Below are positions 1 through 11,191 of a stretch of 11,191 nucleotides of DNA, piece after piece. The stretch lies in the NCBI GenBank assembly GCA_947629395.1, contig CANRDQ010000039.1:1-11191 (forward strand), in the 5' to 3' direction. Below the pieces are notes generated by a model that was not told the origin of the DNA, searched no databases, and saw only the letters and a program-made list of their open reading frames with translations. The position numbers were made by a program, and so were the translations under genes. The stretch's first letter is position 1; the number at the start of each line of letters is the position of its first letter. Source of the stretch: an uncultured Bacilli bacterium (lineage in GTDB: Bacteria > Bacillota_I > Bacilli_A > RF39 > UBA660).

Positions 1-324
1 TATGATTCTGAAAATAAGTTTATTATAAGTAATAATATTCTTCCTATTTCTATTGGTTTTAAAAACTTAAAAGAAACAGTTACAACTAGAAAGATTTATA
101 ATAAGAAAAATATTTCATCTAAAGCTATTTCTATAGCATCTGATAAACTTTTGAAAAAAATCGGAAAGTATGATACTATTATTTCCAAAAAAGTTTTGAA
201 AAAGACTGAAAAAAATAGTAAAATATTAGTAGATGTTTTTTTCAAAGTGTCTGAAGATATAACTGATTCTGTTAGCATAAAAGATAAAGAAATACCGAAT
301 AGTGAAAAAGAAAAGGAGGAATAG
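1..324 (+). CDS. yqfD: Sporulation protein YqfD, C-terminal fragment (5' end outside window)
   Basis: This frame is open from the first base to a TAG at 322-324, giving 107 residues with no start in view; the gene is cut by the window edge. The fragment reads as the extracytoplasmic C-terminus of YqfD, a mother-cell sporulation protein of about 400 residues. It has a helix rich in Ala/Lys/Ile (around codons 41-56), then the family's closing pattern of a Lys-rich strand followed by 'VFFKVSEDI', like the 'FEVIE(D/N)I' ending of Bacillus and Clostridium YqfD. Its position ahead of ybeY, dgkA, cdd and era is the usual yqfD position. A Lys/Glu-rich tail follows. The stop lies beside the SD of the next gene, so the two are probably cotranscribed. 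Calling only a third of a protein from memory leaves some doubt. Confidence 0.8.
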   Translation, partial: YDSENKFIISNNILPISIGFKNLKETVTTRKIYNKKNISSKAISIASDKLLKKIGKYDTIISKKVLKKTEKNSKILVDVFFKVSEDITDSVSIKDKEIPNSEKEKEE

Positions 325-325
325 T

Positions 326-925
326 ATGTTTTTGTCAATGAAACAAACAATACATGGTGTCATAAATTTTACTTGGCCTATGGTTGTAATTTCCTCTGTA
401 ATTATTATTTCTCTTCGTATTGCATATTTAATGCATAACAGGGAAAAGTTTGTTTTATATAAAGAACTATTCACTTTGTCATTTATAATCTATATTTTAT
501 GTCTATTCCAAGTTGTAACGTATCAGGATGTTCCGAGTTGGACAACGAATAATTTTATTCCCTTTAAAGAAATATTAAGATATAAATTGGGAAGCCAATT
601 ATTTATTAGGAATGTTGTTGGTAATGTGTTATTGTTTTTACCATATGGACTTTTTATTAGTTTAATACTTAGACCTAAAAAGAGTCATTTAATAATGGCT
701 TTAATAATAATAGCTAGTGTATCTATTGAATTTGTACAAATGTCAATAGGAAGAGTATTTGATGTTGATGATATTTTATTAAATTTTATAGGTGGAAGTC
801 TCGGTTATTTATTATACGTTTTACTGATGAAATTTGCAGAGCATATACCAGAGTTCTTAAAATCAGATTTAGTACTTAATATCATAGCGATATTTTTACT
901 TATGTGTTGTTTAACATTAATATAG
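326..925 (+). CDS. VanZ-like integral membrane protein
   Basis: A 199-residue protein of the VanZ-like family, whose biochemical role is not established; VanZ itself gives low-level teicoplanin resistance. About six hydrophobic segments are visible (near 17-35, 49-66, 99-117, 121-138, 150-169 and 182-198). Family landmarks are present: 'NFIPFKEI' at 76-83, 'GNVLLFLPYG' at 99-108, the E135-x-x-Q138 pair, and 'R-x-x-D-x-D-D' at 143-149 followed by N153 and G156. The start is the ATG at 326, because AGGAGG at 314-319 is spaced correctly for it; the in-frame GTG at 302 lies inside yqfD and has no ribosome site. It sits between yqfD and ybeY, where phoH and/or yqfF are common in relatives, and seems to be transcribed with them. 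Confidence 0.85.
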   Translation: MFLSMKQTIHGVINFTWPMVVISSVIIISLRIAYLMHNREKFVLYKELFTLSFIIYILCLFQVVTYQDVPSWTTNNFIPFKEILRYKLGSQLFIRNVVGNVLLFLPYGLFISLILRPKKSHLIMALIIIASVSIEFVQMSIGRVFDVDDILLNFIGGSLGYLLYVLLMKFAEHIPEFLKSDLVLNIIAIFLLMCCLTLI

Positions 926-937
926 AAGGAGAAATGT

Positions 938-1780
938 ATGAATAAAATAGAAGTTTTTAATCAAACTGATGAAGAAATTGCAGAAATAGAACAAATAAAA
1001 GAAGTAATTAAAGTGGCTCTTAGTGTTGAAAAATTAGATCATATTGAAATGAATGTTATTTTAGTTGATGATGAGACTATTCATTCTATAAATAAGCAAT
1101 ATCGAAATATAGATAGACCTACTGATGTTATTAGTTTTGCTTTAGAAGATGATGAAACTTCCAAAATAGATATTTATGAGTATAGAGTATTGGGAGATAT
1201 TTATATTTCTGTAGATACAGCTAGACGTCAAGCTAAAGATTATGGACATTCATTTTTAAGAGAAATCACTTTTTTAACGGTTCATGGTTTTTATCATTTA
1301 TTAGGATATGATCATCAAACACCAAAAGAAGAAGAGGAAATGCTTGCTAAACAAAAAGTAGTAATGAACAAGTTTGAAAGAAGAAAGACTTTTAATAAAA
1401 CTCTAGATAAGAAAAGGTTAGTAAATAGTTTTTCACATGCTTTTGATGGTCTTTTAGATGCTTATGCTAGTGAACAAAATTTATGTGTTCATACTATTGT
1501 AGCTATTTTGGTTATTGCCTGTGGTCTTATAGTAGGATTAACTAATTATGAATGGATTATTTGTTTAATGTTATTTGGACTAGTTATTACTGCTGAACTT
1601 TTAAATACTACTTTTGAACACATGGTAGATTTAGCTTGTCCAGAAATTAATCCTTTAGCTAAAAAAGTAAAAGATACAGCAGCGGCAGCAGTGTTAGTAT
1701 TTGCTTTTATTTCAGCTATTATTGGTTTAATGATATTCGTTCCCAAAATTATTATATGGTTAAAAATATTATATCGATAG
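938..1780 (+). CDS. ybeY-dgkA: Fused endoribonuclease YbeY and undecaprenol/diacylglycerol kinase DgkA
   Basis: One 280-residue frame carries two proteins usually encoded by adjacent genes. Residues 1-148 are YbeY, the zinc endoribonuclease of 16S rRNA 3'-end maturation and ribosome quality control; 'TVHGFYHLLGYDH' at 114-126 supplies the three zinc histidines H116, H120 and H126, and 'DRPTDVISF' at 59-67 is also typical. Residues 149-160 are a short charged linker. Residues 161-280 are DgkA, the small membrane kinase that in Gram-positives phosphorylates undecaprenol for wall-lipid recycling. Its 'SFSHAFDGL', 'EQN...H' and the catalytic pattern E220-LLNTTFE227-HMVD are all present, with three hydrophobic segments (185-200, 206-224, 250-269). 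No internal stop or frameshift is visible. SD AGAAGGAGAA (924-933) overlaps the vanZ stop. The fusion would tether YbeY to the membrane, which is an inference. Confidence 0.93.
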   Translation: MNKIEVFNQTDEEIAEIEQIKEVIKVALSVEKLDHIEMNVILVDDETIHSINKQYRNIDRPTDVISFALEDDETSKIDIYEYRVLGDIYISVDTARRQAKDYGHSFLREITFLTVHGFYHLLGYDHQTPKEEEEMLAKQKVVMNKFERRKTFNKTLDKKRLVNSFSHAFDGLLDAYASEQNLCVHTIVAILVIACGLIVGLTNYEWIICLMLFGLVITAELLNTTFEHMVDLACPEINPLAKKVKDTAAAAVLVFAFISAIIGLMIFVPKIIIWLKILYR

Positions 1781-1790
1781 GAGTATAAAT

Positions 1791-2171
1791 ATGAGAGAAA
1801 AGTTAGTAGAGTTATTAAAAAATAGTCATAGTCCATATTCAAACTTTGCTGTTAGTGCAATTTTAGTATGTAAAGATGGAACTGAATTTAAAGGTGTAAA
1901 TGTCGAAAATGCTAGTTTTGGTGCAACAATATGTGCTGAACGTAGTGCTATAGTTAGTGCAGTAAGTTCTGGCTATAAAAAAGGTGATTTTAAAGAATTA
2001 CATATTAAAGCTAGTAGTGGACAAGTAGTAACCCCATGTTTTTTATGTCGTCAAGTTTTAGAAGAATTTTTTGATGATGATATTGTTGTATATTGTTATT
2101 CAGATGATGATGTAGAAAAATTTACAAAAGCTGAATTATGTCCACATCCATTTGGAAGTGAAGATCTATGA
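1791..2171 (+). CDS. cdd: Cytidine deaminase
   Basis: A 126-residue zinc enzyme of pyrimidine salvage that deaminates cytidine and deoxycytidine to uridine and deoxyuridine, of the short homotetrameric type. 'SPYSNFAVSA' at 14-23 forms part of the nucleoside pocket. C48-A-E50 gives the first zinc cysteine and the catalytic glutamate, and C83 and C86 in 'TPCFLCRQ' supply the other two zinc ligands. The usual PCGxCRQ is here PCFLCRQ, an unusual substitution between the ligands that leaves their spacing intact. The 'ELCPHPFGSEDL' tail matches the usual 'ELLPxxFxxxDL' end. SD ATAGGAG (1777-1783) includes the stop of the preceding gene. Its TGA stop overlaps the era start as ATGA, pointing to translational coupling and showing that TGA is a stop codon in this genome. 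Confidence 0.96.
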   Translation: MREKLVELLKNSHSPYSNFAVSAILVCKDGTEFKGVNVENASFGATICAERSAIVSAVSSGYKKGDFKELHIKASSGQVVTPCFLCRQVLEEFFDDDIVVYCYSDDDVEKFTKAELCPHPFGSEDL

Positions 2172-3058
2172 AAAAATGTGGTCTTGTAAGTTTAGTGGGT
2201 AGACCTAATGTAGGTAAGAGTACACTTTTAAACAGTATTTTAAATATAAAATTAGCTATTACTAGTGATAAAGCAGGAACAACTAGAAATATTATTCATG
2301 GTATTTATAACGATGAAGATTCGCAAATTGTATTCGTAGATACACCTGGTATTGCTAAACCTTTACATAAATTAAATCAAGTTTTAAATAAGAAAGCTTA
2401 TAACAATACAGAAGGGGTAGAATTAATTTTATTTTTAGTAGATATTTCTAGTGGTTTTGGTAGAGGGGATGAATATATCTTAAATCAAATAAAAGATAAA
2501 GATATTCCTATTTTTTTACTGCTTAATAAAATAGATAAAATAAAAAAAGAAGAATTAATTAAGAGAATAACTACTATTCAAGAAAAATATGATTTTGCAG
2601 AAATCATTCCAATATCTGCTATGAAAAAAGATAATATAGGTACTTTATTAAAATGTATTAAAAGTTATTTGCACGATGGAGAACCTTATTATGATGAAGA
2701 AGAACTTACTAATATTTCAGTTAAATTCATGATGGCTGAACTTGTTCGTGAACAAGTATTAAGACTTACTAAAGAAGAAGTTCCTCATACGGTAACTTGT
2801 TATACAGAAGAGTATCATGAAACAGAAGATAGAGTAGATGTTTCTGTTTTAGTAGTTGTTGATCGTGAAAATATTAAGAAAATGATTATTGGTAAACAAG
2901 CTTCAATGATTAAACAAATTGGAACTAGAGCTAGACATGAAATGGAAGCTTTTTTAGGGAAAAAAGTATTTTTACAAACTTATGTTAAAACTATGAAAAA
3001 TTGGCGAGATAGAGAAAAATATTTATTAGAACTTGGACTTAAAGAAATAGATGAATAA
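2168..3058 (+). CDS. era: GTPase Era, ribosome assembly
   Basis: Era is a GTPase that binds the 3' end of 16S rRNA during 30S assembly. At 296 residues it is of usual length. GTPase motifs appear in order: G1 'GRPNVGKS' at 11-18, the switch I threonines of 'AGTTR' at 36-40, G3 'DTPG' at 58-61, G4 'NKID' at 120-123 and G5 'SA' at 150-151. The C-terminal type II KH domain carries 'MIIGKQASMIKQIG' (239-252) and ends in the conserved 'FLQTYVKTMKNWR' (268-280). The start overlaps the cdd stop by four bases, with GGAAGTGA upstream in cdd as a likely ribosome site. Being beside ybeY is sensible functionally, since both act on the 16S rRNA 3' end. Confidence 0.98.
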   Translation: MKKCGLVSLVGRPNVGKSTLLNSILNIKLAITSDKAGTTRNIIHGIYNDEDSQIVFVDTPGIAKPLHKLNQVLNKKAYNNTEGVELILFLVDISSGFGRGDEYILNQIKDKDIPIFLLLNKIDKIKKEELIKRITTIQEKYDFAEIIPISAMKKDNIGTLLKCIKSYLHDGEPYYDEEELTNISVKFMMAELVREQVLRLTKEEVPHTVTCYTEEYHETEDRVDVSVLVVVDRENIKKMIIGKQASMIKQIGTRARHEMEAFLGKKVFLQTYVKTMKNWRDREKYLLELGLKEIDE

Positions 3059-3063
3059 AAAAA

Positions 3064-3089
3064 TCTATTTTTTCCACTATAAAAATAGA
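3064..3089 (+). repeat. 9-bp AT-rich inverted repeat between era and yqzL
   Basis: TCTATTTTT at 3064-3072 pairs perfectly with AAAAATAGA at 3081-3089 across an 8-base loop. The 3' arm overlaps the first bases of the yqzL ribosome site (AGAGGTGG, 3087-3094). No T run follows, so it is not a factor-independent terminator; it might weakly mask the site, or be chance in AT-rich DNA. Confidence 0.4.
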
Positions 3090-3099
3090 GGTGGATAAA

Positions 3100-3192
3100 A
3101 TGGAAGAAATTTTATGGAATTTATTTAAAAAAACCGGAGATATTAAATACTTTGTATTAATGAATAAAATAAAGACAGAAACAGATGAATAA
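3100..3192 (+). CDS. yqzL: YqzL-like small protein (30 residues)
   Basis: A 30-codon frame, ATG to TAA, fills the era-recO gap. Its peptide 'ILWNLFKKTGDIKYFVLM' (4-21) matches the core pattern W-x-LF-xx-TG-xI-xx-Y of the YqzL-like family, whose genes lie between era and recO in Bacillus and relatives. The Bacillus protein is somewhat longer, and here the region after the core is reduced to a few charged residues. The ribosome site AGAGGTGG (3087-3094) is well placed, five bases from the ATG. Position, SD and motif agree, so I treat it as a real gene despite its size. The function of the family is not known to me. Confidence 0.75.
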   Translation: MEEILWNLFKKTGDIKYFVLMNKIKTETDE

Positions 3193-3208
3193 AGACAAGA
3201 GGTAAGAT

Positions 3209-3949
3209 ATGGAAATAGTTAGTGTAGAAGGAATTTGTTTAAGTGAAAGTAATTATAGTGAATCTAGTAAAATATTAAATGTTTTAACACGTGAATATGG
3301 TATTATTGGAATTATGTCTAAGGGTAGTAGAAAAATAAAAAGTAAACTTCGTGGTGTTTCACGTAAGTTAATGTATGGAAAATATCATATTTATTATAGA
3401 GAAAATGGACTTTCTACCTTAATTGGTGTTGATATAATTAATTCTTTTGATAAGACAGTAATGGACTTAAAAAAAGTTAGTTATGCCTCTTATATAATAG
3501 ATTTAATCAATCAAGTTTCAAAACAAAATGATGATGATGAAATTTTTGATTTATTGAAAAATACTTTATTAAAAATAGAAGAGGACTATGATCCAGAAAT
3601 ATTGACCTGTATCCTCGAACTACAAGCTTTAAAATATTTAGGAGTAGCTCCTGCACTTGATGGTTGTAGTATATGTGGTAGTTCTAAAAATATTATTACT
3701 CTAGATTCAACTGCAGGAGGATATGTTTGTAGTGATTGTTATACACAAGGAGTTATTGTTGATTCTAAAACAATTCAGTTGGTTAGAATGTTTTATTATG
3801 TTGATATAGAAAAGATAACTAAATTAAAAGTTAATGCTGATTTATTAAAAGAAATAAGAACTTTTTTAGATGATTATTATGAACGATATACTGGATTATT
3901 TTTGAAAAGTAAGAATTTTTTAAAAAATATAAATAGATTTCAGGAGTAA
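3209..3949 (+). CDS. recO: DNA repair protein RecO
   Basis: RecO (246 residues, usual for the family) loads RecA onto SSB-coated single-stranded DNA together with RecR and anneals complementary strands. The N-terminal OB fold starts 'VEGICLSESNYSESSKIL' (6-23), like the family's 'GIVLRTRDYGEADKIV'. A basic stretch 'KGSRKIKSKLRG' (38-49) follows. The C-terminal helical part holds the four-cysteine zinc site C153-x-x-C156 ... C174-x-x-C177 and the 'GGYVCSDC' turn. SD AGAGGTAAG lies just before the ATG and 16 bases separate it from the yqzL stop. The era-yqzL-recO order is the standard Bacilli arrangement. Confidence 0.95.
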   Translation: MEIVSVEGICLSESNYSESSKILNVLTREYGIIGIMSKGSRKIKSKLRGVSRKLMYGKYHIYYRENGLSTLIGVDIINSFDKTVMDLKKVSYASYIIDLINQVSKQNDDDEIFDLLKNTLLKIEEDYDPEILTCILELQALKYLGVAPALDGCSICGSSKNIITLDSTAGGYVCSDCYTQGVIVDSKTIQLVRMFYYVDIEKITKLKVNADLLKEIRTFLDDYYERYTGLFLKSKNFLKNINRFQE

Positions 3950-3953
3950 AGTG

Positions 3954-5135
3954 ATGAAAAAAATAATTATAGGGGTTGTTATTATTCTAATATTAACTGG
4001 AGGAATTGGAGCTGGTTTTTATTTTTATAATGAAAGTAAACCCAAAAAAGTGGTAAAGAAAGTAGAAAAGAAACCTACTGTTAAAAAAGAAAAAGAAAAG
4101 AAAAAATCTGATTCTATTTTTGCCGATTATGAAGATGTGGCAATTAAAAGAAGAGAACAGATGACTTTAGATGAAAAAATAGGACAAATATTTTTAGTTA
4201 GATATAATGATGAAAATGTTATAAATATTACTAGTACTTATCATCCTGGTGGTTATTTGTTATTTGCGAAAGATTTTCAATATGAAGATACTAACAGTAT
4301 TAGAAATAAAATAAATAGTTTAAATGGGGCTAGTAACATTCCTTTAGCTATTGCAGTAGATGAAGAAGGTGGAATAGTTAATAGAGTTAGTAAGTTTACA
4401 CAATTTAGGAGAACACCGTTTAAAGCACCTCAAAAAATATATAATGAAGGTGGTATGCAAGCAATTATTAATACCGAAAGAGAAAAAGCGGACCTTTTAT
4501 TGAGTTTAGGAATTAACTTAAATTTAGCTCCAGTAGCAGATGTTTCAACTAATAGTGAAGACTTTATTTATAGTAGAAGTTTAGGAAGAGATGCTAATAC
4601 GACTGCTGAATATATTAGACAGGTTGTCCAGGTAATGAATGAAAAAAATATTTCAGGTTGTCTTAAACATTTTCCTGGTTATGGAAGTAATAAAGATACA
4701 CATACTGACATTGCTGTTGATAATAGAGACTATAATACTTTTGTTACTAATGATTTTAAACCATTTATTGCCGGAATAGAACAAAAAGTACCAGCTATTT
4801 TGTTTTCTCATAATATTATGGCATCTATGGATGGAACTTTACCTTCATCATTATCAGGTAGAGTACATGAAATTTTACGAAAAGAATTGAAATTTACGGG
4901 AATTATTATCACAGATGATTTAGCAATGGGTGCCCTTAAACAATATACAGATAATAATACAGCCGCTATAAAGGCATTAGAGGCAGGAAATGATTTATTG
5001 ATTACATCAGATTTTGTCGCAGATTTTAACTTAGTTAAAGATTATATTTCTAAAAATCCTGATAGTGAAAAAAGGTTAAATGAAGCCGTAGATAAAGTTT
5101 TAGCGTGGAAATATACTTACAAAATTATAAAATAA
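3954..5135 (+). CDS. Membrane-anchored glycoside hydrolase family 3 (NagZ-type beta-N-acetylhexosaminidase)
   Basis: A 393-residue single-pass protein: a hydrophobic anchor at 4-24, a Lys/Glu-rich spacer (27-51) and a GH3 catalytic barrel (about 60-393) placed outside the membrane. GH3 signatures occur in order: 'LAIAVDEEGGIVNRV' (131-145), 'LGINLNLAPVADV' (185-197), 'SRSLGRD' (207-213), 'KHFPGYG' (238-244) and 'ITDDLAMGAL' (319-328). D321 would be the nucleophile. D248-T-H250 supplies the Asp-His dyad that NagZ-type enzymes use as acid/base, so a beta-N-acetylglucosaminidase acting on peptidoglycan or muropeptides is likely. KHFPGYG in place of KHFPGHG is, as I recall it, common in clostridial relatives. 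The ATG at 3954 is seven bases from CAGGAG (3941-3946); the GTG at 3951 is a weaker choice. It follows recO closely and probably shares its transcript. Confidence 0.9.
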   Translation: MKKIIIGVVIILILTGGIGAGFYFYNESKPKKVVKKVEKKPTVKKEKEKKKSDSIFADYEDVAIKRREQMTLDEKIGQIFLVRYNDENVINITSTYHPGGYLLFAKDFQYEDTNSIRNKINSLNGASNIPLAIAVDEEGGIVNRVSKFTQFRRTPFKAPQKIYNEGGMQAIINTEREKADLLLSLGINLNLAPVADVSTNSEDFIYSRSLGRDANTTAEYIRQVVQVMNEKNISGCLKHFPGYGSNKDTHTDIAVDNRDYNTFVTNDFKPFIAGIEQKVPAILFSHNIMASMDGTLPSSLSGRVHEILRKELKFTGIIITDDLAMGALKQYTDNNTAAIKALEAGNDLLITSDFVADFNLVKDYISKNPDSEKRLNEAVDKVLAWKYTYKIIK

Positions 5136-5191
5136 TATAGGAAATATAAGATATTTATGATATTCTATATATAGACGTAGAGGTGAAGGCA

Positions 5192-5881
5192 GTGAAAAAA
5201 TATCTTTTAACCATTTTAATAATTAGTATTAGTATATTAGTTGTTACTAGTGGTTGTAGTATAAAAAGAGAAAAAGAATTAACAGATGAAGAAAAGTTTG
5301 AACAAGAATATGAAATGTTAAATGGAAAAACAAATGATTCTGATGTTGAATATAAAACTATTGATATACCAACTAAAAATAAAGTTGAATATATAAATGC
5401 TAAGGAAGCTATCGAAATATTAGAAGGAAAAACAGGAGTTATTTACTTTGGTTTTCCAGAGTGTCCTTGGTGTCGTAATGCTTTACCAGTTTTAATGGAT
5501 GCTGTTAAAGAAACAGGTATTGATAAAATCTATTATTATAATGCTTTAAATATTCGTGATACAAAACATCTAGATGATGATGGTAAAGTAGTAGTTGATA
5601 AAAAAGGAACTAAAAGTTATAAAAGAATACTAGAACTTTTAGGAGATAAAGCTGATGTTTATGATGGACTTGAAGATGAAAGTATAAAAAGACTTTATTT
5701 TCCAACAGTTGTATTTGTTCGTGAAGGAAAAGTAATATCACTTCATTCATCTACTGTAGAAAGTCAAACAGATCCTAGTAAAAAACTTACTAAAAAACAA
5801 ACTAAAGAGTTAAAAGAAATTTATGTACAAGGCTTAAATGAAGTAAAAGCTAAAATTTGTGAAGAAGAAGGAAAATGTTAA
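5192..5881 (+). CDS. Thioredoxin-fold lipoprotein with CPWC motif
   Basis: A secreted or membrane-tethered thiol-disulfide protein of 229 residues. Residues 2-21 form a signal peptide ending 'VVTSGC', with C22 as the probable lipidated cysteine; Thr at -3 makes this lipobox weak. After a charged linker, the thioredoxin domain has 'GVIYFGFPECPWCRNALP' (82-99) with active-site C91-P-W-C94 and the cis-proline region 'YFPTVVF' (169-175, P171). About 50 residues of extra, partly charged sequence lie between them. Two more cysteines, C223 and C229, sit at the very C-terminus and may form a disulfide. The start is a GTG at 5192, six bases past GAGGTG (5180-5185); an upstream GTG at 5183 lies inside that site. 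The substrate is unknown. Resemblance to bacteriocin-accessory thioredoxins is only at fold level. Confidence 0.8.
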   Translation: MKKYLLTILIISISILVVTSGCSIKREKELTDEEKFEQEYEMLNGKTNDSDVEYKTIDIPTKNKVEYINAKEAIEILEGKTGVIYFGFPECPWCRNALPVLMDAVKETGIDKIYYYNALNIRDTKHLDDDGKVVVDKKGTKSYKRILELLGDKADVYDGLEDESIKRLYFPTVVFVREGKVISLHSSTVESQTDPSKKLTKKQTKELKEIYVQGLNEVKAKICEEEGKC

Positions 5882-5896
5882 ATTTAAATGAATAAT

Positions 5897-5940
5897 AAGT
5901 CTCCTTTTGTATCATAACAGATATGAAAGGAGATTTTTTT
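5897..5940 (+). promoter_or_regulatory. sigG leader hairpin: ribosome-site lock and terminator-like structure
   Basis: Bases 5900-5913 pair with 5920-5933 over 14 positions (two G-T wobbles at 5908/5925 and 5909/5924) around a six-base loop; AAG at 5897-5899 can add three more pairs with T's 5934-5936. The 3' arm contains the only ribosome site of sigG (AAAGGAG, 5926-5932), so it is fully paired when the hairpin forms. Seven T's (5934-5940) follow directly, then the ATG at 5941, so the shape is also that of a factor-independent terminator for the lipoprotein gene. Any sigG message with a usable SD must carry at least the 3' arm. I recall that in Bacillus subtilis a leader hairpin occluding the SD dampens sigG translation; this may be the equivalent. 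Confidence 0.8.
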
Positions 5941-6717
5941 ATGGCACGTCACAAAGTGGAAATTAGTGGCGTGAATACAGCAAATATAAAAGTTTTAAGT
6001 AATAGTGAAATGATTGAATTATTTAAAAAAATGCATGAAGGAGATCCTTTTGCTAGAGAAGATTTAGTTAATGGAAATTTAAAGTTAGTGTTGTCTATAT
6101 TGAAAAAATTTCACACTAGATGTGAAAATATGGATGATCTTTTTCAGGTAGGGTGTATTGGTTTACTAAAAGCAATTGATAATTTTGATTTATCTCATGA
6201 AGTAAAATTTTCTACTTATGCAGTACCAATGATTTTAGGAGAAGTAAGAAGATTTTTAAGAGATGATAATAGTATTAGAGTTAGTCGTTCTTTAAAAGAT
6301 ATTGCTTATAAGACTTTAAAAATTAAAGATGAAGCTTCACTATCGGGTAAGGAAGAACCAACTATAGATGAAATAGCTAAAAAACTTGATATAACTCCTT
6401 ATGAAGTGGTAATGGCAATCGATTCTTTAAAAAGTCCCGTTAGTATGTTTGAACCAATCTATAGTGATGGAGGAGATACAATATATCTTTATGATCAAAT
6501 TGCGGATGATAAAAGTGAGACTAATGATATAGATATAAAACTTTCTTTACAAGAAGCGATAGCAGACTTAAAAACTAGAGAACAAACTATTTTAGATGAA
6601 AGATTTATCGTAGGAAAAACTCAAATGGAAATTGCTGAAGAACTTTCTATTAGTCAAGCTCAAGTATCTAGGTTAGAAAAGTCGGCTATTGATAAAATTA
6701 GAAAAACTCTTAAATAA
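5941..6717 (+). CDS. sigG: Forespore late sigma factor SigG
   Basis: RNA polymerase sigma-G, which drives late forespore genes such as those for SASPs and germinant receptors. The 258-residue product is nearly the same length as the Bacillus protein. Its N-terminus 'HKVEISGVNTANIKVLSN' (4-21) matches the SigG-specific leader 'NKVEICGVDTSKLPVLKN' and separates it from SigF. Region 2 includes 'NGNLKLVLSI' (44-53) and 'DDLFQVGCIGLLKAIDNFD' (65-83), with 'VKFSTYAVPMILGEVRRFLRDD' following. Region 4.2 is 'GKTQMEIAEELSISQAQVSR' (225-244). N44 aligns with Bacillus N45, which I recall as the residue tied to anti-sigma CsfB/Gin recognition. The ATG at 5941 is chosen because AAAGGAG ends eight bases before it; the ATG at 5923 lies in the hairpin with no SD. 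SpoIIGA and SigE genes, upstream in Bacillus, are absent here. Confidence 0.97.
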   Translation: MARHKVEISGVNTANIKVLSNSEMIELFKKMHEGDPFAREDLVNGNLKLVLSILKKFHTRCENMDDLFQVGCIGLLKAIDNFDLSHEVKFSTYAVPMILGEVRRFLRDDNSIRVSRSLKDIAYKTLKIKDEASLSGKEEPTIDEIAKKLDITPYEVVMAIDSLKSPVSMFEPIYSDGGDTIYLYDQIADDKSETNDIDIKLSLQEAIADLKTREQTILDERFIVGKTQMEIAEELSISQAQVSRLEKSAIDKIRKTLK

Positions 6718-6741
6718 ACTGTGTTAAAACACAGTTTTTTT
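6717..6741 (+). terminator. Factor-independent terminator after sigG
   Basis: AACTGTGTT at 6717-6725 pairs with AACACAGTT at 6728-6736; in practice a CTGTGT/ACACAG stem with a four-base loop. A run of seven T's occupies 6735-6741. It begins on the last base of the sigG stop codon. Only 25 bases separate its end from the ylmC start, so ylmC-yunB either depend on read-through or use a promoter overlapping this stem. Confidence 0.9.
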
Positions 6742-6766
6742 GCATATTAGTTTGTAGGTGAGGAGT

Positions 6767-6994
6767 ATGTTTCTTTCAGACTTACAAACAAAAACTATAG
6801 TTAATTTAGTTGATGGTAAGAACATAGGAAGTATTATTGATGTAAAAGTTGATGAAACAGGAAAAGTTTTAGCTCTCATAATAGAAACTAATAAAGGTTT
6901 ATTTAGATCTATGTCTAAAGAAGAAGTAATAGTAAATTGGAGTGATATAGCTAAGATAGGAGAAGATGTTATCTTAGTAAGAACATCACTTTAA
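6767..6994 (+). CDS. ylmC: YlmC/YmxH-family PRC-barrel sporulation protein
   Basis: A 75-residue protein made of a single PRC-barrel-like fold, of the family annotated as YlmC/YmxH sporulation proteins. 'LVDGKNIGSIIDVKVDETGKV' (14-34) corresponds to the family's 'V.dGkklGsI.Dle.D..tGki', and 'EVIVNWSDIAKIGEDVILVR' (53-72) to 'eivIpWe.IvkIG.DvILVr'. Its exact role is unknown. The ATG at 6767 is preferred to the GTG at 6758: AGGTGA (6756-6761) fits the extended anti-SD and is five bases from the ATG, while the GTG overlaps it. A ylmC-type gene close after sigG also occurs in Bacillus subtilis and many clostridia, which supports the name. A single base separates its stop from yunB. Confidence 0.88.
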   Translation: MFLSDLQTKTIVNLVDGKNIGSIIDVKVDETGKVLALIIETNKGLFRSMSKEEVIVNWSDIAKIGEDVILVRTSL

Positions 6995-6995
6995 T

Positions 6996-7745
6996 ATGAG
7001 AAAAATTAAATTAAAAAAGAGAAAAAAACATAAAAAATTAAATATCTTAGTTATAACTATATTTTTGTCTATTATATTATCAATAATGATGGTTATTTTA
7101 ATGGATAAAAAGATAACTCCTATACTTTTACGTTACGCTACTAGTGAAACTAAACGATTTTCGACTATACTTATTAATCAATCTATAGATAAAGATGTAC
7201 TCGAAAAATTAGATAGTGAATTATTTGTAGTGTCTAAAGATAGTAAGAATGAAATACAAATGGTTGATTTTAACACTAAAAAAGTAAATGAAGTATTAGA
7301 GTTTGTAACCCAAAAGATAAGTGATAATTTAAAGAAGTTAGAGTCAGGAGAAATAAAGGATTTAGATTTTGTTGATTCTTTTAAAGGGGTTAGTTATAAA
7401 GATTTAAAAAAAGGAATTGTTTGTGAAGTACCAGCAGGAGTACTTTTTTCTAGTTCACTACTATCTAATATGGGACCAATGATACCAGTAAAGATGTCTT
7501 TTATAGGACAAGTATTAACTAATCTGAAAACTAAAGTTAAAAATTATGGTATTAATAATGTTTATTTAGAACTTAGTATTCATGTTGAAGTAACTCAAAA
7601 AATAACTATGCCAATATCAACTAAAGAAGTACCAGTAATGGTTGATATACCTTTGACTGTGAAAATGATACAAGGACAAGTTCCTACCTATGTAGCGGGA
7701 AATATAGGGAGTTCTAATTTATTTTCTTTACCAATAGAGGAATAG
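6996..7745 (+). CDS. yunB: Sporulation protein YunB
   Basis: A 249-residue mother-cell sporulation protein; in Bacillus yunB belongs to the sigma-E regulon and its molecular role is unclear. A Lys/Arg-rich start (1-14) precedes one membrane segment (about 16-36), with the rest outside. Family landmarks: 'VPAGVLFSSSLLSNMGPMIP' at 145-164 followed by 'VKMSFIGQV', 'YGINNVYLEL' (184-193), 'VTQKITMPIST' (199-209) and 'IPLTVKMIQGQVPTYVAG' (218-235). The length matches the Bacillus protein closely. No SD is visible before the ATG, which lies one base past the ylmC stop, so translation by reinitiation after ylmC is likely. Its coding end contains the promoter of the next gene. Confidence 0.93.
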   Translation: MRKIKLKKRKKHKKLNILVITIFLSIILSIMMVILMDKKITPILLRYATSETKRFSTILINQSIDKDVLEKLDSELFVVSKDSKNEIQMVDFNTKKVNEVLEFVTQKISDNLKKLESGEIKDLDFVDSFKGVSYKDLKKGIVCEVPAGVLFSSSLLSNMGPMIPVKMSFIGQVLTNLKTKVKNYGINNVYLELSIHVEVTQKITMPISTKEVPVMVDIPLTVKMIQGQVPTYVAGNIGSSNLFSLPIEE

Positions 7746-7757
7746 TTGTGATATAAT
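7727..7757 (+). promoter_or_regulatory. Sigma-A-type promoter for yutD, extended -10
   Basis: TATAAT at 7752-7757 is preceded by TG at 7749-7750 (TGaTATAAT, a perfect extended -10). A weak -35, TTTACC (7727-7732), lies 19 bases upstream inside the end of yunB. The predicted start near 7764 leaves a short leader with the ribosome site TAGGTAGGAGA. Confidence 0.7.
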
Positions 7758-7780
7758 TAATTTAGGTAGGAGAATAGAAA

Positions 7781-8068
7781 ATGAAGAAATATGAAATAAA
7801 TGATAAAGAATATGAACTTATAAAAGATAATGGTAATTGTTTTGATTTAGAAGAAGTTAAATCCTTTATGACGGAATATTTTGATAATTTTGATTATATT
7901 TTTGGAGATTATGCATATGATAGATTAAGACTTAAAGGTTTTAATGATAAAGAAAGTAAAAGCTACAATAAGGTTAATGATATAAAAAAATTAGATGATT
8001 ATATAGAAAATTATTGTGCCTATGGAGCTAAATATTTTCTTTTAAAAAAAATAAAAATCGAAAAATAG
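7781..8068 (+). CDS. yutD: YutD-family protein (DUF1027)
   Basis: A 95-residue soluble protein. 'DYIFGDYAYDRLRLKGF' (38-54) and 'LDDYIENYCAYGAKYFLLKK' (71-90) match the two conserved blocks of the YutD-like family ('DYIVGDWGYGQLRLKGF' and 'L.DYL.EYCNFGCAYFVL'). The typical Trp in the first block is Tyr here, and the GxAYF of the second is GAKYF. The function of the family is unknown to me. The ribosome site AGGTAGGAGA is well spaced from the ATG and the gene has its own extended -10 promoter. In Bacillus subtilis yutD lies near yunB, and yutH and yutI are in the same chromosomal region, which supports the assignment. It is probably monocistronic or reads into the next promoter; no terminator is visible after it. 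Confidence 0.85.
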   Translation: MKKYEINDKEYELIKDNGNCFDLEEVKSFMTEYFDNFDYIFGDYAYDRLRLKGFNDKESKSYNKVNDIKKLDDYIENYCAYGAKYFLLKKIKIEK

Positions 8069-8070
8069 TA

Positions 8071-8098
8071 TTGAATTTATTTAAATATATGATAAAAT
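8071..8098 (+). promoter_or_regulatory. Sigma-A-type promoter for the DUF1292 operon
   Basis: TTGAAT (-35, 8071-8076) and TAAAAT (-10, 8093-8098) are 16 bases apart, and TG at 8090-8091 makes an extended -10. It begins two bases after the yutD stop. The strong SD AGGAGG (8116-8121) lies on the expected leader. A short GATAAA/TTTATC dyad spans the -10 region and may be incidental. Confidence 0.75.
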
Positions 8099-8130
8099 AG
8101 ATTTATCATAGTAATAGGAGGATAAGGATA

Positions 8131-8406
8131 ATGGAAACTAAAGATTTGAACAAAAAGATTATGTCAATAGTTAAAGAAGATGGATCTGTTGAAGAAGTAG
8201 AAGTTATCTTGGCTTTTGAGTTTAAGGATAATCAAAAGGAATATGTTGTTTATACAAGAAATGAAACTGATGAAAATGGAAATGTAACTATTTATGTATC
8301 TAATGTTGATCGTACAACAGGAGATGCAAAACTATTAGGAGTTAACGAAGAAAGCGAATGGAATCGTATTAAAGATGTATTACGAGAGCTTTCTAAGTCA
8401 GAATAA
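8131..8406 (+). CDS. yrzB: DUF1292 family protein (YrzB-like)
   Basis: A 91-residue acidic soluble protein. 'EEVEVILAFEFKDNQKEYVVYT' (21-42) matches the DUF1292 core ('v.vLftFe.e..gk.YvvYt'), 'IYVSNVDR' (54-61) the following 'vyasry' strand, and 'ESEWNRIKDVLRELSK' (74-89) the closing helix 'eEwe.Ie.vl..l'. In Bacillus yrzB sits with ruvX and yrzL after alaS; here that context is missing. Its biochemical role is not known to me. Strong ribosome site AGGAGG nine bases before ATG. It is followed after 14 bases by the unrecognised coiled-coil gene, and both share one promoter and one terminator, suggesting linked expression. Confidence 0.88.
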   Translation: METKDLNKKIMSIVKEDGSVEEVEVILAFEFKDNQKEYVVYTRNETDENGNVTIYVSNVDRTTGDAKLLGVNEESEWNRIKDVLRELSKSE

Positions 8407-8420
8407 CGGGAGGGTTTATA

Positions 8421-9359
8421 ATGAGCGTAAATATTTTGTCAAATGTCGAACTTGTTAATAGAGAAAACGATAATTGTAGTTTAATTGATTATAATAGACT
8501 TAAACTTTCAAAAGGTACTTTTAATGCGGTAAAAGGATTTAGTATGAAACATCAACAAGAGGAAAAAGTAGTAAATAATAGTTATGATGTTGTTAATCCA
8601 GTTTCTGTAGCTACACTAGATGAACCTGCGAAAGGATTAAGAGTTAGTCCAGATTTAGTTTCTACATCACAAACTCCTGGATATCAAAGTAAACCAGAAA
8701 ATATTCATAAAGAAGTTGATGATAGAGTAAAAATTACAGGTAGCCATAAAGATTTAAATGGAAAAATGGAATACTTTAGTAAGAATTCAAATGAAATTAA
8801 CGTTGGTAATATCTATGCACAAAATAGTGCTGCACCAGCTGTTAATAATGCATTTGCTGCTTCTAAAGAAAAACCATTACAAGAAGCTACTAAAGACATT
8901 AAACCAGTAGAAACAGTTAAATTAGGTAATAATATAAACGATAATAATTTAATCAAATTTAAAGCTGATGCTGAAGAAGTTAAGGTTGAAACTCCAGCAA
9001 AAGAAGAACCTAAAGATGTATTTAGTGTATTAAAGAAAGTAGAAGAAAGTTCACCAGTTCAACCAGCAGTTAGTTCAATTAATAAATTAAGTGAAGTTGA
9101 AAACTTAAAGAAATTAAGAGATGAACTTGAAGCTGAAAAGAGAAGAAAAGTTCAATTAGAAGCAGAGAAGACTGCTAAAGCTGAACAATTAAGTAAAACT
9201 CAACAAGAAGCTGAAATGTATATGAAGAAACTTCTTAGTGAATTGAAAAATGATAATGCTAGTACAGAAAAAAGTATTCAAGACATTAATCAAGAACAAG
9301 AAGAAGTTGAATCATTTGTTGGTGAATATAAAAGTCAAGAACCATCAAGAACTAGATAA
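8421..9359 (+). CDS. Unrecognised 312-residue protein with C-terminal coiled coil
   Basis: I do not recognise this protein. It has no signal peptide and no hydrophobic segment. Residues 1-50 contain short ordered-looking pieces ('YNRLKLSKGTFNAVKGF', 24-40). Residues 50-220 look disordered: rich in Asn, Ser, Pro, Val, Lys and Glu, with repeated Lys/Glu/Pro/Val segments such as 'IKPVETVKL' and 'VETPAKEEPKDVF'. Residues 224-300 form a long charged helix ('KKLRDELEAEKRRKVQLEAE' at 230-249) typical of a coiled coil, then a short polar tail ending 'PSRTR'. A GGGAGGG ribosome site (8408-8414) six bases from ATG suggests good translation. It is second in an operon with the DUF1292 gene. The shape fits a scaffold, a cytoskeletal adaptor or a lineage-specific structural protein; none of these is shown by the sequence. 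Confidence 0.85.
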   Translation: MSVNILSNVELVNRENDNCSLIDYNRLKLSKGTFNAVKGFSMKHQQEEKVVNNSYDVVNPVSVATLDEPAKGLRVSPDLVSTSQTPGYQSKPENIHKEVDDRVKITGSHKDLNGKMEYFSKNSNEINVGNIYAQNSAAPAVNNAFAASKEKPLQEATKDIKPVETVKLGNNINDNNLIKFKADAEEVKVETPAKEEPKDVFSVLKKVEESSPVQPAVSSINKLSEVENLKKLRDELEAEKRRKVQLEAEKTAKAEQLSKTQQEAEMYMKKLLSELKNDNASTEKSIQDINQEQEEVESFVGEYKSQEPSRTR

Positions 9360-9362
9360 TTT

Positions 9363-9390
9363 AAAAGCATTCAATAAGAATGCTTTTTTT
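9363..9390 (+). terminator. Strong factor-independent terminator
   Basis: AAAAGCATTC (9363-9372) pairs perfectly with GAATGCTTTT (9378-9387) around loop AATAA, and T's run from 9384 to 9390. It lies three bases after the stop of the coiled-coil gene and closes the DUF1292 operon. Confidence 0.95.
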
Positions 9391-9418
9391 CATATAATTA
9401 TTTTTTTAACATAATATA
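9389..9418 (+). promoter_or_regulatory. Possible promoter of the yutH-like gene, mother-cell sigma type
   Basis: CATAATATA at 9410-9418 fits the sigma-E/sigma-K -10 pattern CATAnnnT(A). TTCATATA at 9389-9396 fits six of eight positions of the sigma-E -35 (GKCATATT), with 13 bases between them. That would suit a coat-protein gene and gives a leader of roughly ten bases. TATAAT at 9393-9398 is an alternative vegetative -10, but its -35 would fall in the preceding terminator and is poor (TTCAAT). The DNA is so AT-rich that chance matches are likely. Confidence 0.4.
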
Positions 9419-9434
9419 CAACAAGAGGTGTCTT

Positions 9435-10346
9435 ATGAAAAAAGAATTATATTACTATTATGGTTTAGATAATATTAAAGTACATTACAAAGATAAAAAA
9501 TATCTAATTACTAAAGATAATGAAAAATATTTATTTAAACCTTGTTATAGGAAATATGAAGAATTAGAAGAAATATATCAAGTTTTAGAATATAATAGTA
9601 ATTATTATTTTCATAAGATTATCTTAAATAAGAGTAGGTCAATTATAACAGTTATTAATAATACTCCTTATATTTTACTTAAATTACAAATAGAAGATGA
9701 TAGATTTATAGATTTTTCTGATATTATAGATTTCAATAGAAGAACAATTAATACTAATAATATGAATTTAAAATATATATTTAGAAATAATTGGGTAGCT
9801 CTATGGAGTAGAAAAATAGATTATTTTGAATATCAAATGATTCATTTAAAAGATAAATATAAAATTATAGCCTCAAGTATTAATTTTTTTATTGGTTTAA
9901 GTGAAAATGGAATTAGTTACATAAATCAAGTTTTAGAGGTAAAAGACTTTAAGAGTCCTAATATATCTATTCAACATCAAAGACTTCACTATGAGACTAA
10001 TATAACTGATTTTTATGATCCTAGTAATATAGTTATAGATTATAAAGCTAGGGATGTATGTGAATATTTAAAATCTTTATTTTTAGTAGGAGAGTATGAC
10101 TATAATTATTTAGAGTCTTTTTTAAGAAATTTAAATTTTAAAAAGAGTGATTATGAAATGTTATTTGGAAGATTATTATTTCCAACATTTTATTTTGATA
10201 TTTATGAACAAGTAATTAATCATCAACTTGAAGAAAAAGAAATACTAAAAATAGTGTGTAGTTCTGAAAAGTATGTTACCTTTTTAAAAAATGTTTATAA
10301 GATTATTAATAATATTTATCCCATAAAAAAAGTAGATTGGATTTAA
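9435..10346 (+). CDS. yutH: YutH/CotS-like spore-coat kinase-fold protein
   Basis: A 303-residue protein of the CotS/YutH group, spore-coat proteins with an aminoglycoside phosphotransferase-like fold. Supporting pieces: 'WSRKIDYFEYQ' (124-134), 'FFIGLSENGISYINQ' (151-165) like YutH 'YYiGLaENAIQY', 'ISIQHQRLHY' (177-186) at the catalytic-loop position, and 'DPSNIVIDYKARDVCEYLKS' (195-214) like 'P..vViDhkaRDiaEyIr'. The usual catalytic-loop His-x-Asp is H181-Q-R183 here, so it is probably a pseudokinase with a structural role. Very rich in Tyr, Asn, Ile and Lys. Ribosome site GAGGTG (9425-9430). In Bacillus yutH and yutI are neighbours, as the equivalent genes are here. Identification rests on spaced motifs, so the exact name is less sure than the group. 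Confidence 0.75.
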   Translation: MKKELYYYYGLDNIKVHYKDKKYLITKDNEKYLFKPCYRKYEELEEIYQVLEYNSNYYFHKIILNKSRSIITVINNTPYILLKLQIEDDRFIDFSDIIDFNRRTINTNNMNLKYIFRNNWVALWSRKIDYFEYQMIHLKDKYKIIASSINFFIGLSENGISYINQVLEVKDFKSPNISIQHQRLHYETNITDFYDPSNIVIDYKARDVCEYLKSLFLVGEYDYNYLESFLRNLNFKKSDYEMLFGRLLFPTFYFDIYEQVINHQLEEKEILKIVCSSEKYVTFLKNVYKIINNIYPIKKVDWI

Positions 10347-10355
10347 TCTACTTTT
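10325..10355. terminator. Bidirectional terminator spanning both convergent stop codons
   Basis: AAAAGTAGATT (10328-10338) pairs perfectly with AATCTACTTTT (10345-10355) around a six-base loop. The A run at 10325-10331 becomes seven T's for - strand transcripts, and TTTT (10352-10355) serves the + strand more weakly. Both stop codons lie on the loop and 3' arm (TAA at 10344-10346 on +, 10343-10345 on -). Confidence 0.85.
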
Positions 10356-10579
10356 CTAACTTCTTTAACTTCAGGAATTTCGCTCATAATCATTTGTTCA
10401 ATTCCATCTTTTAAAGTAATATCCATCATACCACAATTTTGACAAGCTCCTAAAAGTCTAACATAGACGATATTATCTTCATATTTAACAAATTCTAAGT
10501 TTCCACCATCACTTATCAAAAAGGGTCTTATTTTATCAATTAACATATGAATCTTTAATTCAGTATTTTCTTCTTCCAT
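10343..10579 (-). CDS. yutI: NifU-like C-terminal domain iron-sulfur protein
   Basis: A 78-residue stand-alone NifU C-terminal-type domain, a carrier or scaffold that delivers iron-sulfur clusters. 'IRPFLISDGGNLEFVKYEDN' (17-36) and 'VYVRLLGACQNCGMMDITLK' (38-57) are the family's 'iRP.L..DGGd.elv...dg' and 'V.v.l.GaC.gCp.s..TLk'; the cluster ligands are C46 and C49. It ends with 'IPEVKEV' as usual. The ATG at 10579 is chosen, with GGTGAT (10584-10589 on this strand) four bases upstream; a TTG at 10591 and a GTG at 10588 in frame lack a site. It is the only - strand gene here, transcribed toward yutH with a four-base stop overlap. Relation to Bacillus yutI is by family and neighbourhood. Confidence 0.93.
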   Translation of the reverse strand: MEEENTELKIHMLIDKIRPFLISDGGNLEFVKYEDNIVYVRLLGACQNCGMMDITLKDGIEQMIMSEIPEVKEVRKVD

Positions 10580-10595
10580 ATCAATCACCAACTAA

Positions 10596-10624
10596 ATTAT
10601 AATCAAAAAAGGAGAAAGTGTAAA
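10596..10624 (-). promoter_or_regulatory. Sigma-A promoter for the NifU-like gene
   Basis: Read on the - strand: TTTACA (10624-10619) and TATAAT (10601-10596) with a 17-base spacer, five of six and six of six to consensus. The predicted start is near 10589, so the leader is only about ten bases and begins at the GGTGAT ribosome site. Confidence 0.85.
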
Positions 10625-10629
10625 GAGTG

Positions 10630-10659
10630 TTGGTATAAATAATTAAATTGTGATACAAT
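10630..10659 (+). promoter_or_regulatory. Sigma-A promoter for the S1-domain gene
   Basis: TTGGTA (10630-10635) and TACAAT (10654-10659) are 18 bases apart, and TG at 10651-10652 makes an extended -10. It diverges from the NifU-like promoter, the two -35 boxes being about five bases apart. SD AGAGGAAG (10671-10678) follows. Confidence 0.75.
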
Positions 10660-10681
10660 ATATAAAGAAAAGAGGAAGTTT

Positions 10682-11056
10682 ATGTCTAAGTATAAAAAAA
10701 ATCAAATTGTATCTGGCTGTGTAACAGGTATTGAGAAGTATGGAGTGTTTGTTAGTTTAGATGAATACTATAGTGGACTTATTCATATTTCGGAAATATC
10801 AGATAATTTTGTACGTAATATAGAAGATTATGTTAAGCAGGGAGAAACAATTAGAGCGAGAGTTATTGATGTTGATGACGATGAATGTCATGTTAAATTA
10901 AGTATTAAAAATCTAGATTATAGTGTTACTAGAAAGAGAAAAAATAAGATAAAAGAGACCGAATTAGGGTTTTCTACATTAGAGTCAAAGCTTGATTCTT
11001 GGATAGAAGAGACCTATAAAGGTATAAAAAGTGCAGAAAAAAACGAAGAAAAATAA
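10682..11056 (+). CDS. yugI: S1-domain RNA-binding protein, YugI/GSP13 family
   Basis: A 124-residue ribosome- or RNA-associated protein with one S1 domain at 4-76: 'KKNQIVSGCVTGIEKYGVFVSL' opens it, 'GLIHISEIS' (32-40) is the hallmark, 'VKQGETIRARVIDVD' (51-65) follows and 'VKLSIK' (71-76) closes. A basic linker (83-92) leads to the C-terminal signature 'GFSTLESKLDSWIEETYK' (96-113), matching the 'GF.tLkdKLeeWIe' tail of Bacillus YugI (general stress protein 13) and streptococcal CvfD. That tail is what separates it from other S1 proteins. The family binds RNA and, in pneumococcus, acts in post-transcriptional regulation. Own extended -10 promoter; no terminator of its own before the tRNA promoter. 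Confidence 0.92.
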   Translation: MSKYKKNQIVSGCVTGIEKYGVFVSLDEYYSGLIHISEISDNFVRNIEDYVKQGETIRARVIDVDDDECHVKLSIKNLDYSVTRKRKNKIKETELGFSTLESKLDSWIEETYKGIKSAEKNEEK

Positions 11057-11061
11057 AAAAA

Positions 11062-11108
11062 GTGTTGACAAATTATTTCTAAACTGGTATAGTTAATTTT
11101 GTCAGCAC
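11062..11108 (+). repeat. Imperfect inverted repeat flanking the tRNA promoter
   Basis: GTGTTGACAAATT (11062-11074) is complementary to AATTTTGTCAGCAC (11095-11108): eleven consecutive pairs including one G-T wobble, then two more past a one-base bulge. The left arm contains the -35 box and the right arm covers the predicted start. It could be an operator-like dyad, or fold in yugI read-through RNA. Confidence 0.5.
11065..11093 (+). promoter_or_regulatory. Near-consensus promoter for tRNA-Val
   Basis: TTGACA (-35, 11065-11070, perfect) and TATAGT (-10, 11088-11093) with a 17-base spacer and TG at 11085-11086 (extended -10). The predicted start near 11100 lies about 20 bases before the tRNA, as expected of a strong stable-RNA promoter. 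Confidence 0.92.
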
Positions 11109-11120
11109 GTGTTAATTTTG
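11092..11120 (+). repeat. 10-bp direct repeat before the tRNA
   Basis: GTTAATTTTG occurs at 11092-11101 and again at 11111-11120, 19 bases apart. The first copy overlaps the -10 box and start, the second ends on the first base of the tRNA. No function is apparent. Confidence 0.5.
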
Positions 11121-11191
11121 GGCGATTAGCTCAGTTGGTTAGAGCACCTGCCTTACAAGCAGGGGGTCACAGGTTCGAGTCCTATATCGCC
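11120..11191 (+). tRNA. tRNA-Val (anticodon UAC), 3' end cut by window
   Basis: A cloverleaf is visible: acceptor GGGCGAT (11120-11126) pairing with ATCGCC at the window end, D arm GCTC/GAGC, anticodon stem CCTGC/GCAGG with loop CTTACAA (anticodon TAC, valine), a five-base variable loop and T loop TTCGAGT. The last acceptor base, discriminator and any CCA lie beyond the window. The T stem ACAGG/CCTAT has one C-A mismatch at its second pair. The layout closely follows Bacillus tRNA-Val(UAC). Confidence 0.95.

Follow-up and report, generated by a model that had tools for sequence, protein, structure and literature searches.

Two hairpins have been described in RNA carrying the sigG gene of Bacillus subtilis. 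A hairpin of 20 or more pairs is proposed for read-through RNA from spoIIGA-sigE and is precluded in transcripts of the sigG promoter, PsigG, while a 5-bp leader hairpin (-6.2 kcal/mol) forms in sigG's own mRNA, with a 2-4 fold effect (PMC5942855, in the portions available to us, citing Masuda 1988 and Sun 1991 for the larger hairpin). The same portions describe sigma-G in vegetative cells as toxic. In phage T4, the late promoters of gene e and I-TevI lie within a hairpin that hides the Shine-Dalgarno sequence (SD); the long early RNA adopts a fold in which the SD is masked, and the late RNA, which lacks the 5' part, is well translated, with a 100-fold effect for gene e (excerpts of PMC3014915 and PMC2988022). 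Here we describe a hairpin in front of sigG in 11,191 nucleotides (nt) of DNA from an uncultured Bacilli bacterium (contig CANRDQ010000039.1, positions 1 to 11,191, hereafter the window). This hairpin is very probably a gate against read-through, joining a terminator and a ribosome-site block, that is bypassed by a promoter within it. The barrier to read-through and the bypass by the inner promoter are the surer part of this reading; that occlusion of the SD adds to termination is less sure. All evidence is DNA of uncultured, apparently spore-forming Bacillus relatives known from sequence alone.

The features of the locus are as follows.

5889 to 5894, plus strand: TGAATA, putative -35 element of a promoter of forespore type (sigma-F/sigma-G), from a two-block motif in 81 leaders and the same motif before spoIIR
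5897 to 5913, plus strand: 5' arm of the hairpin, within the promoter spacer, from folding, a spacer-swap control and covariation
5913 to 5919, plus strand: putative -10 element CATAACA, from the two-block motif; C5913 closes the stem and ATAACA is the loop
5920 to 5936, plus strand: 3' arm of the hairpin, from folding
5925 to 5928, plus strand: predicted transcription start, 6-9 nt past the -10, from promoter geometry
5926 to 5933, plus strand: SD AAAGGAGA in the 3' arm, from the sequence
5934 to 5940, plus strand: run of seven T, at once the U-tract of the terminator shape and the spacer between SD and ATG, from the terminator scan and the sequence
5941 to 6717, plus strand: sigG, 258 amino acids (aa), NF006071 equivalog above cut-off

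Positions 5897-5913 pair with 5920-5936 in 17 unbroken pairs, three of them G-U, around the loop ATAACA (5914-5919). A sequence-only reading of this DNA had proposed that such a stem holds the whole sigG SD in its 3' arm and that the seven T separate the SD from the ATG, and both are borne out: AAAGGAGA lies entirely within the 3' arm, and the T run ends directly before the ATG at 5941. The 41-nt hairpin has a free energy (dG) of -19.9 kcal/mol, compared with -5.3 (standard deviation 2.6) for shuffled sequences, none of 200 of which equalled it (z -5.7); when the surrounding 91 nt were folded, one of 200 did (z -4.5). A terminator scan of positions 5000-7000 returned two terminator-like sites, the hairpin among them, where 0.3 are expected. 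The hairpin is thus real and terminator-shaped. A search of the window against Rfam at the gathering threshold matched one tRNA alone and no curated family for the hairpin.

For comparison we assembled 81 sigG leaders, namely that of the window and those of the 80 best among 369 confirmed relatives. A dG of -12 or lower with at least 80% of the SD paired was found in 50/81 of these leaders and in 14/791 background open reading frames (ORFs); with a run of five T before the start as well, the counts were 42/81 and 2/791. The background consisted of all SD-bearing ORFs with a length of 100 aa or more from two relatives (two contigs of one and the first 605 kb of the other's contig). At a background rate of 14/791, chance origin of the hairpin was rejected.

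The pairing itself appears to be maintained. Swapping spacers between species weakened the mean hairpin energy from -13.0 to -7.3 kcal/mol, the means of the 30 runs lying between -8.1 and -6.7. The sequence-only reading had asked for compensatory changes between the arms in related genomes, and these are present: the stem of the window carries 57 two-sided changes against 32.3 after shuffling, a number reached in 0/500 shuffles, and the covariation score is highest in the unslid register, 0.243 compared with a maximum of 0.169 in slid ones. The ungapped alignment comprised the leaders with a common register, 54 of 81, the other 27 being dropped for a gap or an SD offset; kinship is not removed by the shuffle control and is retained in the slide control. 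As judged from these alignments, the arms covary in relatives. The proposed merger of terminator and SD block, which should stop read-through from the upstream lipoprotein gene and block any RNA containing the hairpin, likewise fits a structure that is terminator-shaped and kept in relatives.

The same reading had found no convincing sigma-F promoter upstream of sigG. A forespore-type motif is nevertheless present inside the hairpin. Across the 81 leaders, sigG is preceded by the two-block motif TGNATAAA - 15 nt - YCATAAYAN, whose gap is 15 in 75 leaders, 14 in four, 17 in one and 21 in one, although gaps of 12-21 were permitted in the fit. Such a fixed gap is typical of a promoter and not of a hairpin, which on its own needs no such constancy in the sequence. 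The motif agrees with what we take to be the sigma-G consensus, GHATR - ~18 nt - CATNHTA. Since it was fitted on these same leaders, scoring them with it is circular, which holds neither for the gap nor for the result at spoIIR. At a score of at least 10, the sigG-trained motif stands upstream of 28/28 spoIIR genes (found in 30 genomes), counting one match, L087, that looks misplaced, with a gap of 16 and no SD following, compared with 0/29 rpsD genes and 9/252 shuffles. It was found upstream of 1/27 gpr genes (28 matches were listed, and the second piece of one frame, L136, was left unscored). In Clostridioides difficile, promoter recognition by sigma-F and sigma-G is termed promiscuous (PMC7438776, in the portion seen). 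Sigma-F, sigma-G or both are candidate users of the promoter before sigG, between which the sequence does not discriminate.

As the -10 lies in the loop, the transcript of sigG is expected to begin within the 3' arm, without the 5' arm and hence without the stem. Given this predicted start, the hairpin should form only in read-through RNA and not in sigG's own mRNA. Folding agrees with this distinction. With starts set 6-8 nt past the -10, the predicted probability that the SD is unpaired is 0.43 in the window's own transcript and 0.0003 in its read-through RNA; in the best structure of the own transcript, another hairpin forms within the coding sequence and the SD is free. Among the 58 leaders with a strong hairpin, defined by a dG of -10 or lower (a cut-off of our choosing), the median probability is 0.0033 for read-through RNA and 0.58 for the own transcript; it is below 0.1 in read-through RNA in 46/58 and at least 0.5 in the own transcript in 36/58.

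The sequence-only reading had seen the hairpin as a damper or timer of the forespore sigG message, a checkpoint or attenuator that something must open. An SD buried in a strong stem invites this view, as does the 5-bp leader hairpin that damps B. subtilis sigG 2-4 fold (PMC5942855, in part). We regard it as very improbable. With the -10 in the loop and the start predicted in the 3' arm, the locus comes close to what that reading itself had named as a refutation, a transcript beginning inside the 5' arm; an own transcript without the 5' arm needs no opener. Moreover, the hairpin is mostly gone where read-through is not expected (below), a pattern at odds with a checkpoint acting on the own message. 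With the promoter in the loop, the own-message checkpoint was rejected.

The distribution of the hairpin follows the expected exposure to read-through. A strong hairpin occurs in 51/55 leaders whose upstream gene is codirectional without another terminator, in 5/14 with another terminator within 100 nt before the -35, and in 1/11 with a divergent upstream gene; L024, whose contig has no upstream ORF, is strong and stands outside this table. Exposed loci thus compare with divergent or separately terminated ones as 51/55 with 6/25 (p 9e-10). When each SigG cluster counts once, p is 1.5e-7, 2.5e-6 and 1.3e-4 for clusters drawn at 90, 80 and 75% ungapped identity, the 75% clusters being strong in 20/21 exposed and 3/11 other cases. 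On the SigG tree the trait changes 14 times, at least 10 of them forced by starred branches, with the direction not polarised; of 10 independent tree pairs, an average of 6.2 are in agreement and 0.0 in conflict, with a median p of 0.031 (from 0.016 to 0.22). The four exposed loci with a weak hairpin, L045, L055, L058 and L077, appear insulated by eye, a post hoc judgement, through a 5-bp stem with a T run, a farther terminator at L058 and a distance of 518 nt at L077. The terminator rule was revised with results in view. A simple stem rule gave p 0.008 (Mann-Whitney); a second rule, searching only past the upstream stop codon, gave strong/weak counts of 4/15 for insulated and 53/8 for other loci (p 1.7e-7). 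Because terminators overlapping the stop codon had been missed, the search was moved to the last 100 nt before the -35, the final rule (6/19 against 51/4, p 9e-10). Seven Onthousia-type leaders (L030, L036, L042, L045, L047, L055, L065) lack the sigG-type hairpin and have another, small hairpin formed by the -10 itself and bases near the SD and start.

A palindrome serving as DNA operator of a forespore regulator that overlaps the promoter would account for the dyad symmetry centred on the -10 region, yet the arm letters vary widely outside the SD and covary rather than stay conserved, and presence of the palindrome tracks the direction of the upstream gene. We consider an operator highly unlikely; it was rejected on the covariation of the arms.

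The more serious alternative is that the hairpin merely terminates the upstream gene and overlaps the sigG SD in a compact genome, with occlusion a by-product. It shares the read-through barrier and inner promoter with the gate proposed here, and our confidences in the two overlap. The element is terminator-shaped in two scans and mostly missing where another terminator is present, both points in its favour. However, strong hairpins lie downstream of codirectional genes from 22 different blastp clusters and remain with sigG throughout, so that the hairpin appears to belong to and travel with sigG. The separate terminators sit upstream of the promoter, 11/14 ending at most 9 nt from the -35, and overlap with the SD is therefore not forced; SD-burying terminator shapes precede just 2/791 SD-bearing ORFs. 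A run of five T past the SD region accompanies 49/58 strong hairpins and is lacking in nine, and the terminator rule is satisfied by 46/81 leaders. Most of these hairpins could therefore join termination and SD occlusion, and some can probably just occlude, a point against a terminator alone. On balance we hold this alternative to be unlikely, though the least so of the three.

For the read-through gate we propose the following course of events. Polymerase arriving from the upstream, presumably vegetative, gene would transcribe both arms, and hairpin and U-tract would terminate the read-through transcripts; in read-through RNA that escapes termination, the stem would keep the sigG SD shut away. 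In the forespore, transcription driven first by sigma-F and later by sigma-G would initiate at the promoter that carries the 5' arm in its spacer and has its -10 as loop, and the resulting RNA, beginning in the 3' arm, would neither terminate at the hairpin nor hide its SD. The element would in this way sort sigG messages by their start point. The proposal builds on what was observed by computation, namely the hairpin, the promoter motif in its fixed place, the covariation and the loss of the hairpin where read-through is not expected. From these we infer the start site, promoter use by sigma-F/sigma-G, in-cell read-through, termination and translation block.

Several results weigh against the gate. 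The SD is merely half open in the window's own transcript (0.43), its openness there is below 0.5 in 22/58 strong leaders, and in read-through RNA it is not below 0.1 in 12/58. Sigma-70-type sites at 5000-7000 number 11 against 13.0 in shuffles, hence no excess, and read-through is presumed. The tree-based p reaches 0.22. L078 is strong though divergent, and L002, L006, L017, L029 and L074 are strong despite another terminator. With 9/58 strong hairpins devoid of the T run, the terminator part is not universal. Finally, the contrast between contexts could not be reproduced in a class-wide set (74 loci, p 0.63), nor was it seen at spoIIR (p 0.32), where all 28 loci are codirectional and hence offer no divergent contrast.

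In that class-wide draw, 90/296 genomes gave a match at E <= 1e-40, and 59/82 leaders, eight of which repeat the first set, were strong in the sense used there (dG52 of -8 or lower with at least 60% of the SD paired). They often follow a gene of 230-250 aa, several looking sigE-like by eye. Of 74 loci placed in context, 68 were codirectional without another terminator (48 strong) and five had one (three strong). At spoIIR (L081-L108) the layout is alike, often with a hairpin covering the SD; the mean energy is -8.3, compared with -4.4 when spacers are exchanged (-5.1 to -3.3 over 50 runs). The spoIIR gene overlaps, or stands at most 16 nt from, a codirectional gene in 26/28 loci; the adjoining gene in L083 is prmC-like. 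Scanning 1.19 Mb of two relatives, in pieces overlapping by 500 bases and with the sigG contigs excluded, gave 39 motif matches at a score of at least 13, seven of them before an ORF. Since these seven span a dG of -3.2 to -13.7, the hairpin is no general property of the motif. The window holds a second forespore-type promoter motif at 3052-3099, which scores 17.9 and has its -35 overlapping the stop codon of era. It precedes a 30-aa YqzL-like ORF at 3100-3192 (PF14006, 20.2 bits, under the cut-off of 27), with a weak hairpin (-6.3) between the -10 region and the SD. In L001 and L002, too, the motif precedes a YqzL-like ORF (3/3 found), with weaker folds. We lean slightly towards a design shared by forespore regulators behind other genes in this branch of the Bacilli (sigG, spoIIR, perhaps yqzL), in which a promoter folded into a hairpin silences RNA begun elsewhere, a cis filter on transcript origin that guards cell fate and comes and goes with the neighbours.

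Two further features frame sigG in the window.

5183 to 5881, plus strand: codirectional upstream gene, 232 aa, lipoprotein-like/thioredoxin-like, a possible source of read-through; ORF with a weak TIGR01295 match
6716 to 6741, plus strand: terminator-like site at the end of sigG, from the terminator scan with letters checked

The sigG product scores 382.7 bits against NF006071 (cut-off 372) and, as its second match, 367.2 bits against TIGR02850, under the cut-off of 457. The lipoprotein-like protein reaches 31.1 bits against TIGR01295, far under the cut-off of 120, and a Pfam search with it gave no match; 7 nt separate its stop codon from the sigG -35. Beyond the site at 6716-6741 follow the sporulation genes YlmC/YmxH and YunB (6758-7745). 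Elsewhere in the window, at 938-1780, a single ORF joins a YbeY endoribonuclease and a DgkA-type diacylglycerol kinase domain.

With sigG directly behind another gene, the locus suggests how a developmental switch can sit in a crowded genome, a stretch of about 50 bp being promoter, terminator and ribosome-site lock in one. As the hairpin is repeatedly missing beside a divergent neighbour or one equipped with a separate terminator, this natural comparison makes the read-through hypothesis directly testable.

Among known systems, the sequence-only reading had likened the hairpin to the 5-bp B. subtilis leader hairpin. Both occlude the sigG SD, but the window's hairpin should not form in the own mRNA. 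The fitting parallel is the large B. subtilis read-through hairpin, unable to form in PsigG RNA (PMC5942855, as far as available). Like it, the window's hairpin is a large stem upstream of sigG that can hide the SD of read-through RNA. For own-promoter RNA, the motif position and the folding of the own transcript predict that the window's hairpin does not form. It differs in that the SD is part of the stem itself, a U-tract closes the element, and 5' arm and loop are drawn from the promoter spacer and -10, the B. subtilis structure being known here by description and not by sequence. The upstream gene is lipoprotein-like and not sigE; because it does not lie behind spoIIGA-sigE, we call the hairpin a variant, not a member, of the B. 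subtilis type. In a cluster of five relatives (including L019), the upstream gene is sigE-like by eye. With phage T4 the window shares a dedicated promoter in the 5' part of an SD-hiding hairpin, a functional likeness for which we claim no common descent. T4 differs in being a phage, in its late sigma factor gp55 and in having no terminator role in the descriptions available, and there is no homology; for the contrast between poorly translated long and well translated short RNA, the analysis of the window covered predicted SD openness. Among the literature matches listed (titles and abstract openings, mostly of open papers), there was no spoIIR read-through hairpin, merged form or neighbour dependence. 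The principle of hiding the SD according to the start of the RNA is already known from T4 gene e and from the read-through RNA of B. subtilis sigG; the new elements are the merged form of promoter, terminator and ribosome-binding site, its tracking of read-through exposure, and the sister case at spoIIR.
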